This document shows positions 7,567 through 11,178 of a stretch of DNA of 64,000 bases, in pieces. The first letter of the stretch is position 1, and every line of letters starts with the position of its first letter. This stretch comes from Rubellimicrobium roseum (GTDB taxonomy: Bacteria; Pseudomonadota; Alphaproteobacteria; Rhodobacterales; Rhodobacteraceae): positions 62,001 to 126,000 of the forward strand of contig NZ_VDFV01000003.1 of NCBI RefSeq assembly GCF_006152145.1, in the 5' to 3' direction. Made by a program: the position numbers and the translations under genes. The notes beneath the pieces are model-generated. The model worked only from the letters and a program-made list of their open reading frames with translations, did not search any database and was not told the origin of the DNA.

Positions 7567-7818
7567 TCAGATGCCCCAACGGGCCGCGCGGTGCCGGGCG
7601 CGGGCGACCGAGGGCGGCTCGGGTTCGGGCGGCGGAACGGGAGGAAGGCCCATGTCGTCGCGCAGGTGCGGGGGCAGGTGGTCGAGGATTTCCTCCTCGG
7701 CCAGACCGCGGCCGCGACCCTGCCCCGGCCGGCCCATGGTCGAGGCCGGATGGGCGTGGATGACGTCCATCAGGATGCCGAGGACCGAGCGGGGTCGGTC
7801 GAGATGGGTCGTGGCCAT
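7567..7818 (-). CDS. Small protein of unknown function (83 aa) beside the sRNA array
   Basis: I do not recognise the family. From the ATG at 7818 the protein is MATTHLDRPRSVLGILMDVI..., soluble, with an acidic middle (LAEEEILDHLPPHLRDDMG) and a proline-rich, basic end (PPVPPPEPEPP then ARARHRAARWGI). A very strong ribosome-binding site, AGGGAGGA, lies 4-11 bases upstream. That site is the exact complement of the loops of the hairpin RNAs encoded just upstream on the same strand, so translation could be blocked by them. Its own promoter is not clear; read-through past the array terminator is possible. Confidence 0.7.
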   Translation of the reverse strand: MATTHLDRPRSVLGILMDVIHAHPASTMGRPGQGRGRGLAEEEILDHLPPHLRDDMGLPPVPPPEPEPPSVARARHRAARWGI

Positions 7819-7821
7819 GCT

Positions 7822-7833
7822 ATCCTCCCTGGG
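7822..7833 (-). promoter_or_regulatory. Shine-Dalgarno region complementary to the array loops
   Basis: The minus strand reads CCCAGGGAGGAT just before the ATG at 7818. Its first 11 bases are the exact reverse complement of TCCTCCCTGGG, found in the array hairpins around 7934-7944, 8143-8153 and 8185-8195. It serves as the ribosome-binding site and may be an antisense target. Confidence 0.7.
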
Positions 7834-7917
7834 TCGGACCGCCACCGCAGGTCCGTTACCGCGAAGGATGCCCCGGGAGGCCCGGCCGCGTCCTGATGGA
7901 AGGCTGAAACCTCCACG

Positions 7918-7955
7918 AAAAAAACGGCGGTCGCCCAGGGAGGAGGGCGCCGCCG
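7918..7955 (-). terminator. Intrinsic terminator = last hairpin of the array
   Basis: On the minus strand an 11-bp GC stem with one bulge (arms 7955-7945 and 7936-7925) and an 8-nt loop TCCTCCCT is followed directly by seven Ts (7924-7918). It ends the DUF1127/array transcript while displaying the same loop as the other hairpins. Confidence 0.85.
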
Positions 7956-8290
7956 TCCGGTAGGAGCGGCCCAGGGAGGAGGAGAGGGCCGCCGTTCCGA
8001 TGAGAATGCGACAGGACCAGGGAGGAGGAGAGGTCCCGCCGCAGTTCCGCACGACGCCCAGGGAGGAGGACGGGCGCCGGCGAAGTCGTGAATTCCGTGC
8101 GGCGGAGCCGGGGAGGATCGGCCCCGCCGCGAGCCGCCGACACCCAGGGAGGAGAAGGGCGCCGGCGTATTCCGTGCGGTGGAGCCCAGGGAGGAGGGCT
8201 TCCACCGCGACCGTTGCGAGGGGGCCTCGGGAGGAGGTGAGTCCCTGTCCCGCAGAGGCGATCCGGACCCGGGGAGGACGGACCGGACCG
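7918..8290 (-). ncRNA. Tandem array of nine CcsR-like sRNA hairpins with CCUCCUCCC-type loops
   Basis: Nine consecutive stem-loops lie on the minus strand downstream of the DUF1127 gene. Stem arms in plus-strand coordinates, in transcription order, are: 8259-8266/8283-8290, 8222-8228/8239-8245, 8176-8187/8196-8208, 8136-8145/8157-8166, 8101-8110/8119-8128, 8052-8059/8072-8079, 8007-8018/8032-8043, 7966-7972/7986-7992 and 7925-7936/7945-7955. Each loop shows TCCTCCC or a close variant. Most imperfect stem positions are A/C on the plus strand, which become allowed U.G pairs only in the minus-strand RNA. In R. sphaeroides four homologous stress-induced sRNAs (CcsR1-4) with this loop are co-transcribed with a DUF1127 gene. 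The order here is the same but with more copies. Processing into single sRNAs is inferred. Confidence 0.85.
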
Positions 8291-8298
8291 TAGATCCG

Positions 8299-8520
8299 TC
8301 AGGCGCCGTAGGCGGCGCTCCGGGCGAGGGCAGGAAGATCCGCCGTGTTCAGCCCGAGGTCGTGGAGTTCGCGCGGCCCGAGCGTGGACAGTTCGGCCAG
8401 CGTCTCGCGGTAGAGGCGGTAGCGAGCGATGCGGGTCGCGAGATCCGCACGGAGCTGCCCGATCCGTTCGGCCAGCGAAAGCCCGGTGGCGGCGTGATGG
8501 GTGTCGTGTGCGTAGGCCAT
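8299..8520 (-). CDS. DUF1127 small RNA-binding-type protein (CcaF1-like)
   Basis: Basic protein of 73 residues. The C-terminal half carries the DUF1127 pattern RYRLYRETLAELSTL then GPRELHDLGL (about 34-58). The R. sphaeroides homologue at the equivalent position, CcaF1, is an RNA-binding protein that affects maturation of the downstream CcsR sRNAs and RNA turnover. Here the stop codon is about 9 bases from the first array hairpin, so gene and array are one transcript. The ATG at 8520 has only a weak purine-rich ribosome-binding site (GAAAGAAA). Confidence 0.88.
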   Translation of the reverse strand: MAYAHDTHHAATGLSLAERIGQLRADLATRIARYRLYRETLAELSTLGPRELHDLGLNTADLPALARSAAYGA

Positions 8521-8594: not shown

Positions 8595-8622
8595 CAAATA
8601 GACAATTGCTGCGACTGCACAA
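8595..8622 (-). promoter_or_regulatory. Candidate promoter of the DUF1127/sRNA transcript
   Basis: The minus strand has TTGTGC (8622-8617), a 16-bp spacer and TATTTG (8600-8595), about 75 bases before the ATG. The R. sphaeroides locus is driven by the heat-shock sigma factors RpoHI/RpoHII, and this pair is compatible with such a site, but the sigma factor cannot be decided from sequence alone. Confidence 0.35.
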
Positions 8623-8869
8623 TGGAGCTTGGGCGCAAGGCCGCCATGCAGTCAGCGCATGGAGTTGCCGCATTTTCTGGCATCCTGTTGCATGACTGGA
8701 GGGAAAGGGGCCGCCGTCGGCGCGCTGCGCGGAGGGCGGGCCCTTGCGCTTTGCCCGGTCCGCGACAAGGGTTGCCCGCCGGAAGGGCGGCCGTCGAACG
8801 GGCAGCCGCCGCTGGGGCGTCCGGTCCAGCCGGACAGGATAGGGCCGACAGGCGACAGGAGTGTGACGG
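8623..8869. other. Intergenic region between the DUF1127 promoter and mrp; no gene seen
   Basis: About 250 bp of GC-rich sequence with several open frames that have no coding character. It should hold the mrp promoter, but I find no convincing -35/-10 pair. The mrp ribosome-binding site ACAGGA is at 8855-8860. Confidence 0.5.
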
Positions 8870-9961
8870 ATGGGTCCGACACGAGAGCAGGTGATGGCGG
8901 CGCTGGCCCGCGTGGCGATGCCGGGCGGCGGCGATCTGGCCGGCAGCGGGCTCGTGCAGGCGCTGGCGGTGGCCGAGGGAGCGGTGCGCTTCGTGCTGGA
9001 GGCGCGGGGCGTGGACGAGGCGCGGGCGCTCGAGCCCGTGCGCGCGGAGGCTGAGCGGGTGGTGCGGGCGATCCCCGGGGTCACGGGCGTGTCCATCGTC
9101 GTGACCGCGCATGGGCCGGCGGCGAAGGCCCCGGCTCCGCCTCCGCCGTCGGGGGCGCCCTCGCTGACCATCGGGAGGCACCCGACGCCGCAGGCGGGTC
9201 CGCAGCGGGTGACGGGGGTCGACCGCATCCTCGCGGTGGGCTCGGGCAAGGGGGGCGTGGGCAAGTCGACGGTCAGCGCCAACCTCGCCGTGGCGCTGGC
9301 GCGCGAGGGGCGGCGCGTGGGGCTTCTGGACGCCGACATCTACGGGCCGTCGCAGCCGCGGATGATGGGGGTGAGCAAGCGCCCCGCCTCGGCCGACGGC
9401 AAGACCATCGAGCCGCTGCACGCCCATGGCGTGACCCTGATGTCCATCGGGCTCATGGTCGACCCGGACAAGGCCATCGTGTGGCGCGGGCCGATGCTGA
9501 TGGGGGCGCTCCAGCAGATGCTGACGCAGGTGAACTGGGGGCGGCTCGACGTGCTGATCGTCGACCTGCCGCCGGGGACGGGGGACGTGCAGCTCACGCT
9601 CTGCCAGAGGACGCACCTGACCGGTGCGGTCGTGGTCAGCACGCCCCAGGATGTGGCACTGATCGACGCCCGCAAGGCGATCGACATGTTCAGGACGCTC
9701 CACACCCCCATCCTGGGCCTGATCGAGAACATGAGCAGCTTCGTCTGCCCGAACTGCGGCCACGAAAGCCATGTCTTCGGTCACGGCGGCGTCGAGGCGG
9801 AGGCGCGGAAGGACGGCATCCCCTTCCTCGGCCGGCTTCCCATCGACTTGGAGACGCGGATCTCGGGCGACGAAGGCGTGCCCGTGGCAGCCGGGGAGGG
9901 GCCCATGGCCGAGGCCTGGCGCGGCATCGCCCGCCGGCTGGTCGAGGGCGGCATGGCCTGA
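8870..9961 (+). CDS. mrp: Mrp/ApbC-type Fe-S cluster carrier ATPase
   Basis: P-loop ATPase that carries and delivers Fe-S clusters to apoproteins in the cytosol; 363 residues. Residues 1-80 form a MIP18-like (DUF59) domain, then an Ala/Pro linker, then the deviant Walker A GSGKGGVGKST (124-134). DADIYGPSQP, VDLPPGTGDVQLT and the CxxC pair VCPNCGHE near 294 follow; the two cysteines bridge the cluster in the dimer. Complex I needs eight or so Fe-S clusters and is encoded 14 kb away, a possible client. It is a single gene, closed by a terminator at 9995. Confidence 0.93.
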   Translation: MGPTREQVMAALARVAMPGGGDLAGSGLVQALAVAEGAVRFVLEARGVDEARALEPVRAEAERVVRAIPGVTGVSIVVTAHGPAAKAPAPPPPSGAPSLTIGRHPTPQAGPQRVTGVDRILAVGSGKGGVGKSTVSANLAVALAREGRRVGLLDADIYGPSQPRMMGVSKRPASADGKTIEPLHAHGVTLMSIGLMVDPDKAIVWRGPMLMGALQQMLTQVNWGRLDVLIVDLPPGTGDVQLTLCQRTHLTGAVVVSTPQDVALIDARKAIDMFRTLHTPILGLIENMSSFVCPNCGHESHVFGHGGVEAEARKDGIPFLGRLPIDLETRISGDEGVPVAAGEGPMAEAWRGIARRLVEGGMA

Positions 9962-9994
9962 TCCGAGTCGCCCGGCTCCTCGCGACCGACCCAC

Positions 9995-10027
9995 GCGGCG
10001 GCCCTCCGGGGTCGCCGCTTTCGTTTT
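9995..10027 (+). terminator. Intrinsic terminator of mrp
   Basis: GCGGCGGCC and GGTCGCCGC make a 9-bp stem with one G.U pair and a 6-nt loop, followed by TTTCGTTTT. It starts 33 bases after the mrp stop. Confidence 0.8.
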
Positions 10028-10182
10028 GGCCCGATGCCGACAAAAAGCCGTCACAATCCGATTCGGATTTGCCTCACGAACGAGGTTCAAGGGCTAAGCG
10101 GCTGAAACACCGAAGAATGTGACCCAAGCGCCGCGAACCGTGCCGCGAATCTGTGCTGCGCCAGGACGGTTGACGAAAGGTT

Positions 10183-10202
10183 ACCGGCGGTTCTTTGCCG
10201 GT
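10183..10202 (+). other. Small hairpin in the mraZ upstream region
   Basis: ACCGGC and GCCGGT form a perfect 6-bp stem with an 8-nt loop. It follows a -35-like TTGACG at 10170-10175. It could be leader structure or an operator; no function is assigned. Confidence 0.35.
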
Positions 10203-10214
10203 CGAAGTTTCTGT

Positions 10215-10289
10215 CGTCCACAGGCCCCTCCGAAGGGGTCTTGCCCTGATGTTCCGAGAAAAGCGGGCTTTTCCACAGGGCTGTCCACA
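10215..10289 (+). promoter_or_regulatory. Cluster of three DnaA-box-like TCCACA motifs
   Basis: CGTCCACA (10215-10222), TTTTCCACA (10269-10277) and TGTCCACA (10282-10289) lie within 75 bp in the same orientation. TTTTCCACA differs from the DnaA box TTATCCACA by one base. DnaA control of the division cluster would make sense, but no AT-rich unwinding region suggests a replication origin. Confidence 0.4.
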
Positions 10290-10399
10290 GCAAGATGGCG
10301 CTTGGGCTGTGACATTCGCGCAAAGGGCGGCCCTGAAGGCAACATAGGCCTTGAGTACCAGGAATTCCCATGGCATCCCTAATGGTGTCGGAAGCGGCG

Positions 10400-10618
10400 C
10401 GGGATACCCAGGGGCGACAAAGAACCCCGACCGAGACGCAGTCATACAGGCAAATCCATTCCGGTTGCTTCCGATATCGAGAGCAGGACAGCGAACGCCA
10501 CAGGCAGAACGATCCGGCGCGCGAGCGAGCAGCATCCCCCCAGGTGCGCGCGCAGTCGGACTTCCCGGAAGGGACGGAAACGGCGGATCAGGTGTGGCAG
10601 CCCGGATCCGCCGTTTTC
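10400..10618 (+). ncRNA. UpsM-like sRNA from the mraZ 5' leader (5' end uncertain)
   Basis: The roughly 700 bp before mraZ contain no gene, and a strong intrinsic terminator stands 48 bp before the mraZ start. In R. sphaeroides the mraZ leader yields an abundant sRNA of about 200 nt, UpsM, through partial termination upstream of mraZ and RNase E processing. Position, length and terminator agree here. The 3' end at about 10618 follows from the terminator. The 5' end is only placed by analogy, since no clear promoter is visible. Confidence 0.55.
10578..10617 (+). terminator. Terminator/attenuator inside the mraZ leader
   Basis: AAACGGCGGATC and GATCCGCCGTTT form a perfect 12-bp stem with a 15-nt loop and run into TTTTC. 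All dcw transcription that starts upstream must read through it, so it can act as an attenuator and as the 3' end of the leader sRNA. Confidence 0.8.
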
Positions 10619-10665
10619 GTGTCGAAGGACCAGCACCGCGGGGGTTTGGGGCGTAGCGGGTTCCG

Positions 10666-11178
10666 GTGATCACGGCCAGCTTCACAGGCGAATATCCGCA
10701 AAGGATCGACGGCAAGGGCCGGATGTCGATCCCGTCGGACTTCCGCCGCGTGCTGGAGGCCAACGATCCAAACTGGACCGAGGGGCTGAACCCGTCGCTC
10801 TATCTCCTCTATGGCGAGCATCTGAGGGATCATCTCAAGGCCTACACGGTCGCGGCCTTCAACGAGGTCGCCCAGCAGATCATGGCCATCAAGCCGCGCA
10901 CGCCCGAGGAGGCGCAGCGCAAGGCCGTGTCGCAGCGCCTGATCCTGGGCCAGTCGGTGCGGCTGGAGGTCGACCGCGACGGCCGCATCGTCATGCCGAT
11001 CCGCCAGCGCCAGAAGCTGGGCCTGACCGAGGGCGAGGTCGTCTTCTCGGGCGGAGGCGACCATTTCGAGATTTGGGCGGCGGCGACCTTCGAGGAGAAG
11101 GTGGGAGCCCAGATGCGCGCGTTCCTGGAAGCGCAGCCCGAAGGCTTCGATCCCATGACGCTGGTCTGGGGCGGCTGA
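10666..11178 (+). CDS. mraZ: Transcriptional regulator MraZ
   Basis: First gene of the division and cell-wall (dcw) cluster, 170 residues. Two SpoVT-AbrB-like repeats carry the conserved DxxxR signatures: DGKGRMSIP (about 16-24) and DRDGRIVMP (about 105-113). In E. coli MraZ represses its own operon by binding TGGGN repeats upstream. The start is a GTG at 10666; no upstream ATG fits. A terminator-bearing leader precedes it, and rsmH starts one base after its stop. Confidence 0.93.

Follow-up and report, generated by a model that had tools for sequence, protein, structure and literature searches.

In Rhodobacter (Cereibacter) sphaeroides the ccaF1 (RSP_6037)-CcsR1-4 operon has a DUF1127 gene first and motif hairpins directly behind it, arranged in two-hairpin units, with an RpoH-type promoter sequence and an end terminator. 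According to the parts of two papers that deal with them, the CcsR RNAs have regulatory targets in this species (PMC8625941; PMC8307010), affecting C1 metabolism and pyruvate dehydrogenase (PMC8625941), acting on FlhR, and with a reported link to Hfq (PMC8307010). One part of a 2011 survey describes RS0680a as two stem loops. The Rfam model of CcsR1 also represents a single RNA of 83 positions with two hairpins, and the abstract of Billenkamp 2015 is said to give two stem-loops for each CcsR. Because one CcsR equals two hairpins, the four CcsR RNAs equal eight hairpins, a figure for R. sphaeroides that follows from four RNAs of two.

The cuckoo family (ar14, RF02344) includes SmelA075 and SmelA099 of Sinorhizobium. 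Cuckoo-type RNAs have CCUCCUCCC loops, variable stems and a number of hairpins that varies per transcript, with three and four hairpins described in a section of PMC3927594. In the Rhizobiales, AbcR1 and AbcR2 (ar15) carry anti-Shine-Dalgarno motifs that act on the mRNAs of ABC-transporter binding proteins, and their RNA architecture is unlike that of the locus described here (PMC7143759, in part).

This locus lies in Rubellimicrobium roseum (G000; 4.85 Mb in 155 contigs), in a stretch of 64,000 nucleotides that was analysed as a whole and is called the window below (Table 1). It is very probably a CcaF1-CcsR ('cuckoo RNA', CIN1-type) operon, in which a stress-induced precursor would give rise to four two-hairpin sRNAs and a leading hairpin, with anti-Shine-Dalgarno-like loops. 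We favour this reading because of the DUF1127 domain, the excess of hairpins over shuffled sequence, the CcsR1 matches on hairpins 6+7 and 4+5, the register of such matches in the genus, covariation, the two-hairpin period, the lone pairs of genome G014 and the adjacency of related arrays to DUF1127 genes. The locus resembles the R. sphaeroides operon in gene order, two-hairpin units, candidate promoter sequence, terminator and RF02791 matches; it differs in having one hairpin beyond four pairs and in scoring under the gathering cut-off. It shares loops, variable stems and varying hairpin number with the cuckoo family, but nine hairpins in one presumed precursor set it apart from the Sinorhizobium RNAs with three and four. 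An earlier note, made from the sequence alone, had proposed a CcaF1/CcsR-type identity; the layout, the loop motif and the DUF1127 gene speak for it, as do the CcsR1 matches from Rfam. This type of locus is already known and the window locus is by itself ordinary; what is new is the family-wide range of array length and a candidate target code.

Table 1. Features of the array locus from promoter to terminator, in window positions.
Feature	Position	Strand	Evidence
Candidate RpoHI/RpoHII-type promoter: TTG 8622-8620, 19 nt, TAT 8600-8598	8598-8622	minus	sequence likeness
DUF1127 small protein gene (CcaF1-type), 73 aa	8299-8520	minus	Pfam PF06568
Hairpin 1 (leading), loop TCCTCCC	8259-8290	minus	motif and hairpin matcher
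Hairpin 2 (first of pair A), loop ACCTCCTCCC, weakest stem	8222-8245	minus	matcher; ten-pair family model E 2.5e-4
Hairpin 3 (second of pair A), then linker ACGGAATA	8176-8208	minus	matcher
Hairpin 4 (first of pair B)	8135-8167	minus	Rfam CcsR1 match 8094-8172, 30.5 bits, E 2.8e-5
Hairpin 5 (second of pair B), then linker ACGGAATTCACGAC	8099-8130	minus	CcsR1 match with hairpin 4
Hairpin 6 (first of pair C)	8046-8084	minus	Rfam CcsR1 match 8003-8087, 55.4 bits
Hairpin 7 (second of pair C), loop TCTCCTCCTCCCT, then linker with CATCGGAAC	8003-8048	minus	same CcsR1 match as hairpin 6
Hairpin 8 (first of pair D)	7965-7993	minus	weak CcsR1 match 7919-8001, 19.2 bits, E 0.061
Hairpin 9 (second of pair D), presumed intrinsic terminator	7918-7958	minus	T-run 7924-7918

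The DUF1127 gene and the hairpins behind it

The 73-aa open reading frame at the head of the locus matches PF06568 with 43 bits (E 3.8e-11; cut-off 23.3), and 8 nt separate its stop codon from hairpin 1 on the same strand. The array that follows on its 3′ side (8290-7922, minus strand) consists of nine hairpins with TCCTCCC at each loop, the motifs starting at 8278, 8235, 8195, 8153, 8117, 8067, 8026, 7980 and 7944. A hairpin matcher, which demands that TCCTCC be unpaired, found nine hairpins with 8-19 pairs and energies of -16 to -27 kcal/mol, compared with a mean of 0.43 hairpins (maximum 4) and 0.39 motifs (maximum 3) in 300 dinucleotide shuffles of the same stretch. The DUF1127 gene and nine stem-loops on the minus strand, as described in the earlier note, are confirmed. 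Folding of the whole array gave a z of -7.2, with none of 100 shuffles equally good. The full nonamer CCTCCTCCC is present in six of the nine units, with shorter variants in units 1, 4 and 5, and adjacent hairpins with CCUCCUCCC in the loop, a feature of family membership, are found. Hairpin 2 is the weakest: when the whole array is folded at minimum energy, part of its motif is paired.

The gathering scores of CcsR1 (RF02791) and ar14 (RF02344) are 65.3 and 58.8 bits, and an Rfam scan of the whole window at gathering scores gave no match; the window matches were obtained with permissive settings. The best of them, on hairpins 6 and 7, spans model positions 1-83 of 83 (E 1.2e-12 or 4.8e-13), but at 55.4 bits stays under the CcsR1 cut-off, as do the other two CcsR1 matches, and this counts against the CcaF1-CcsR reading. 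An ar14 match at 7919-8048 reaches 49.2 bits, again under its cut-off, which two matches in a relative (L068) attain. The locus is CcsR-like and of cuckoo type, and by Rfam's own cut-off it is not a member of RF02791. The earlier note had taken as a test whether most units get a CcsR-like score in a covariance search, and the outcome was mixed: clear CcsR1 matches (E about 1e-12 and 1e-5) cover four of the nine hairpins and a weak one (E 0.02-0.06) covers two more, hairpins 8 and 9, while three hairpins are in none and all three matches are under the Rfam cut-off. We regarded the matches to 6C RNA (RF01066, E 0.4-2) as chance, along with further weak ones to Rfam families.

Independent models were built from 48 hairpins, selected by motif, of twelve loci from other genera. 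RNAalifold, when no structure was supplied, gave no base pair for them, probably because loop length shifts the register; the covariance model was therefore built on a supplied fixed structure. The sequence-only model found seven of the nine window units at E < 0.03, the other two scoring 0.47 and 0.81. With the ten-pair model five of the nine were found at E < 0.02, whereas hairpins 1, 3, 5 and 9 were within noise, which counts against the reading. Hairpin 1 is within the noise of both models (E 0.33 with ten pairs, 0.81 by sequence only).

Upstream of the array, TTG-N19-TAT is present in six of the eight loci of the genus and TTG-N20-CAT in the remaining two (L013 and L014), with GCGCTAAC behind the element in seven of the eight. 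A figure legend in PMC10673084 gives the TTG/TAT form as the RpoHI/HII promoter consensus, and the candidate promoter may by this likeness of sequence be of RpoH type. A scan for sigma-70 promoters found none. At the other end, at the start of the earlier note's interval, hairpin 9 is followed by a run of seven T, as expected of a Rho-independent terminator; a simple consensus terminator scan did not have it among its listed matches. Further upstream of the promoter, several Rubellimicrobium genomes carry a palindrome-like TGCTGCATRGCAGCA, weaker in the window (about 8640-8690), which resembles what we take to be the CTGC-N3-GCAG regulator site of PhaR. The mraZ leader region (9900-10900) had no match to a known RNA at E <= 1.

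Two-hairpin units in the genus and the family

The earlier note had called the locus expanded, setting nine here against four in R. sphaeroides. These are different units, since nine counts hairpins and four counts sRNAs; counted as hairpins, the four CcsR RNAs come to eight, which is one short of the nine seen here and of the same order, so the claim is not supported. Comparison with other arrays corrects the counting unit to pairs rather than single hairpins. In 54 arrays of at least six hairpins, taken from 67 arrays of at least four in 70 loci (L057 was removed because it duplicates L029), motif spacing alternates when compared with permutations (lag-1 z -8.1, lag-2 z +6.6), and linker A+T alternates too (lag-1 z -4.5, lag-2 z +4.1). 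The motif spacings in the window are 43, 40, 42, 36, 47, 41, 46 and 39. The linkers after hairpins 5 and 7 are distinct (spacing 47 and 46; A+T 0.50), but that after hairpin 3 (42; A+T 0.33) is like that after hairpin 1 (43; 0.33), which counts against the pairing. Two-hairpin units are clear in the 3′ part of the array and weak for 2+3; because the linker after hairpin 3 is no different from that after hairpin 1, confidence is lowest for pair 2+3 and for hairpin 1 standing alone, and the register of this pair rests on relatives. The locus reads best as four pairs and a leading hairpin. The presumed window precursor has nine hairpins and the predicted mature units have two, and the abstract of the 2015 cuckoo paper reportedly gives 2 to 4 hairpins per RNA.

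The seven other loci of the genus together have 14 CcsR1 matches with E <= 0.01, and 13 of these keep to the register 2+3, 4+5, 6+7, 8+9. Five loci have a match on 6+7, two on 4+5, one on 8+9, and L013 and L008 on 2+3; in L009, L010 and L015 (three of the 13) the counterpart of hairpin 3 is matched alone, as the second hairpin of CcsR1. The match out of register, on units 1+2 of L014 (30.0 bits), counts against it. Pairs also occur on their own. Four DUF1127 open reading frames stand in a row in locus L329 of genome G014 (G014:C6:20000-24500): four well separated motif pairs follow the first, a single pair follows the second and likewise the third, and the fourth is without a pair within the stretch.

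All eight Rubellimicrobium genomes examined have the DUF1127 gene and then the array, in the same order. Arrays in the genus have 8-9 units when motifs are counted, excluding a tenth hit of L012 that is 116 nt away, and 6-9 when the stricter hairpin matcher is used; one count gives 10 for L014, where one loop contains the motif twice. Seven of the arrays (L013 was left out) align end to end with units corresponding one by one, and the second unit of G004 and G002 keeps its position while the motif is absent. When the nine stems of the window are mapped onto this alignment, 20 pairs have changed on both sides, compared with 11.4 +/- 2.3 in shuffles; none of 500 shuffles attained this count, and slid structures gave 2-9. 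Cells are paired in 83% of cases, against 38-50% when the structure is slid by 1-3 columns. One of the five covariation measures, further pair types, was ordinary (attained by 64 of 500 shuffles). In the main helix of hairpin 5 every cell is paired in the seven aligned sequences, with one pair changed on both sides. The window locus is ordinary for its genus. A second DUF1127 match in G006 (L011) is without an array, and among the other DUF1127 loci retrieved from the genus a run of two hairpins was found only in L020 (G003).

A pattern of three exact TCCTCCC motifs with gaps of 20-50 nt was found in 167 of 394 family genomes. The pattern misses pairs set far apart: G014, with a score of 0, carries six two-hairpin units within a single stretch, so the figure is a lower bound for arrays. 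It also includes a little chance noise, as the reversed control pattern matches occasionally, up to 7 times in G317. At least seven matches on one strand, corresponding to about the length of the window array or more, were found in 24 of the 394 genomes, including that of the window. In the window genome there are 1 forward and 7 reverse matches, and the forward one, which lies outside the array, may be chance.

We sampled 60 loci, 30 from the first search and 30 among the higher counts, so that the sample is biased upward. Arrays of at least three hairpins were present in 58 of them, with nine or more hairpins in 26 and above nine in 22. Many Rhodobacteraceae genomes share this design of a DUF1127 gene plus an array, with a range of 3 to 26 hairpins; the largest arrays have 26 (L041), 19 (L093) and 17 (L077). 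In 54 of the 58, no more than 58 nt separate the end of a DUF1127 open reading frame from the start of the array, and in 46 no more than 11 nt. The remaining four have no DUF1127 open reading frame upstream, which counts against the reading (L038 with 10 hairpins, L040 with 13, L042 and L047 with 3 each), and no DUF1127 remnant was seen in them by eye in three frames. In the portions of the literature that our search reached, no array above four pairs was found; Billenkamp 2015, Reinkensmeier and Giegerich 2015 and Grutzner 2021 were outside its reach, and absence from print is not claimed. These natural length variants allow a direct comparison of whether array length tunes regulation.

Proposed mechanism and competing explanations

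By analogy with R. sphaeroides, an RpoH-type stress promoter would give one precursor, made up of the DUF1127 mRNA, a 3′ UTR of nine hairpins and the intrinsic terminator. The DUF1127 product would be a small RNA-binding protein that, together with RNase E, cuts the linkers after hairpins 3, 5 and 7. Such cleavage would release four two-hairpin sRNAs (2+3, 4+5, 6+7 and 8+9), the leading hairpin staying beside the mRNA, and Hfq would be expected to bind as it does there. The exposed UCCUCCC loops would copy the anti-Shine-Dalgarno end of 16S rRNA and pair with ribosome-binding sites of GGGAGGA type, so that translation is blocked or the mRNA marked for decay. The likely purpose would be to lower both C1 oxidation and the uptake of substrates when cells meet oxidative stress or heat.

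The same layout could be explained if the array served chiefly as a 3′ UTR that protects or terminates the transcript, or as a decoy for the DUF1127 protein or Hfq, in which case pairing between loops and mRNAs would be unnecessary. The close fit of 54 of the 58 arrays to the DUF1127 stop codon speaks for this, as does the T-run that follows the final hairpin of 50 among 67 arrays, and a unit number anywhere from 3 to 26 would suit a buffer whose dose outweighs its sequence. However, the genus alignment keeps the motif in nearly every unit while the stems change with compensation, and the R. sphaeroides CcsR RNAs, in the published parts cited above, have regulatory targets; we consider this explanation unlikely. 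The invariant motif of the 48 model hairpins is no evidence against it, as those hairpins were chosen by motif.

A real tandem expansion in this lineage, with more copies than in relatives and a higher dose, is very improbable. Such growth does occur elsewhere: an 89-bp two-hairpin unit is repeated 5.4 times in L068 (G372) and a 140-bp three-hairpin unit 6.5 times in L041 (G172), each at 97% identity, and recent amplification of array units is visible in these repeats. In the window array, by contrast, a tandem-repeat search found none, units keep their position across the genus, and one CcsR already comprises two hairpins. The relatives also bear on the idea of an enlarged copy number raised in the earlier note, 8-9 units being the norm of the genus and well short of the family maximum of 26. 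Expansion in this lineage was rejected on the genus comparison and the absence of a tandem repeat in the window array. It is also conceivable, although extremely unlikely, that the stretch is protein-coding, for example as the open frame of 212 aa (7567-8205, minus) that is present through hairpins 3 to 9. Against this, the genus alignment has one- and two-base gaps across the array, compensatory pair changes exceed those in shuffles, and the small protein downstream has its own start and ribosome-binding site (7832-7816). The CcaF1-CcsR operon remains the preferred reading.

Candidate target code

The loop sequence TCCTCCCT is the complement of AGGGAGGA, which occurs 3-9 nt before an ATG at 53 sites in the whole genome, compared with 2 for the reversed pattern. 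Once seven were dropped (six short ORFs and one repeat), 46 ORFs of at least 60 aa were left, and 15 of these encode substrate-binding proteins, as judged by eye from the N-termini and consistent with the Pfam tally. The comparison forms AAGGAGGA and AAGGAGA gave 1 of 23 (28 sites, 5 short dropped) and 1 of 28 (first 30 of 86 sites, 2 short dropped), and the enrichment is 15/46 vs 2/51 (Fisher p 2.8e-4). In G002, another genome of the genus, binding proteins make up 12 of 26 ORFs (from the first 30 of 44 sites, with 4 short ones dropped), and G014 shows a similar enrichment (N-termini, Pfam tally) among the 29 ORFs behind the first 30 of its 53 sites. G014 had been considered as an array-free negative control, which was ruled out as it carries arrays. 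Housekeeping genes are found with other forms, namely ribosomal protein S16 and SSB with AAGGAGA and EF-Ts with AAGGAGGA.

Other members of the AGGGAGGA-led set include Gfa, S-(hydroxymethyl)glutathione synthase (TIGR02820), a binding protein linked to PQQ (TIGR03863) and a dehydrogenase of the PQQ methanol/ethanol family (TIGR03075, 674 bits). When the whole genus is considered, GGGAGG precedes a plausible start in each of the 12 TIGR03075 genes that pass the cut-off, in 8 of them as GGGAGGA, and all seven gfa genes over the cut-off have GGGAGG or GGAGGAGG; start codons were chosen partly by the presence of a site, and orthologues are not independent. Under the same loose rule, a site precedes 3 of 50 window genes, with either 60 or 150 codons searched. 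Sites before C1 genes fit the published effects of CcsR on C1 metabolism (PMC8625941) and on FlhR (PMC8307010), with direct pairing here as a putative mechanism.

It is possible, although we regard it as doubtful, that the Rubellimicrobium array uses a common GGGAGGA code for direct repression of many substrate-binding proteins, of PQQ methanol/ethanol dehydrogenases and of the glutathione-dependent formaldehyde enzyme, instead of acting via FlhR as published for R. sphaeroides, and that unit number (3-26) sets the strength of the shut-off. The genes concerned may just be strongly expressed. The enrichment at AGGGAGGA sites may also belong to the family as a whole, or other anti-Shine-Dalgarno sRNAs, AbcR among them, may cause it. 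These sites are rich in genes for binding proteins, the kind of mRNA on which AbcR1/AbcR2 act; to our knowledge, AbcR1 and AbcR2 have no DUF1127 gene. The GGGAGGA sites before C1-oxidation and binding-protein genes are a concrete candidate target code, open to ordinary genetics.

Just past the terminator lies a small ORF (7567-7818, minus) without a Pfam or NCBIfam match, whose C-terminal LPPHLRDDMGL resembles a DUF1127 motif by eye. Over 11 nt, its ribosome-binding site CCCAGGGAGGA is perfectly complementary to the loop TCCTCCCTGGG. As a dedicated target it was rejected: relatives were seen downstream by eye in two of the seven other genomes (G003 and G006), and their sites differ. In G002, a gene with a Pfam Lactamase_B_2 match (L262) has a AGGGAGGA site too, and its product, which by sequence we take to be a PqqB-like protein, adds a further PQQ-related gene to the target-like set.
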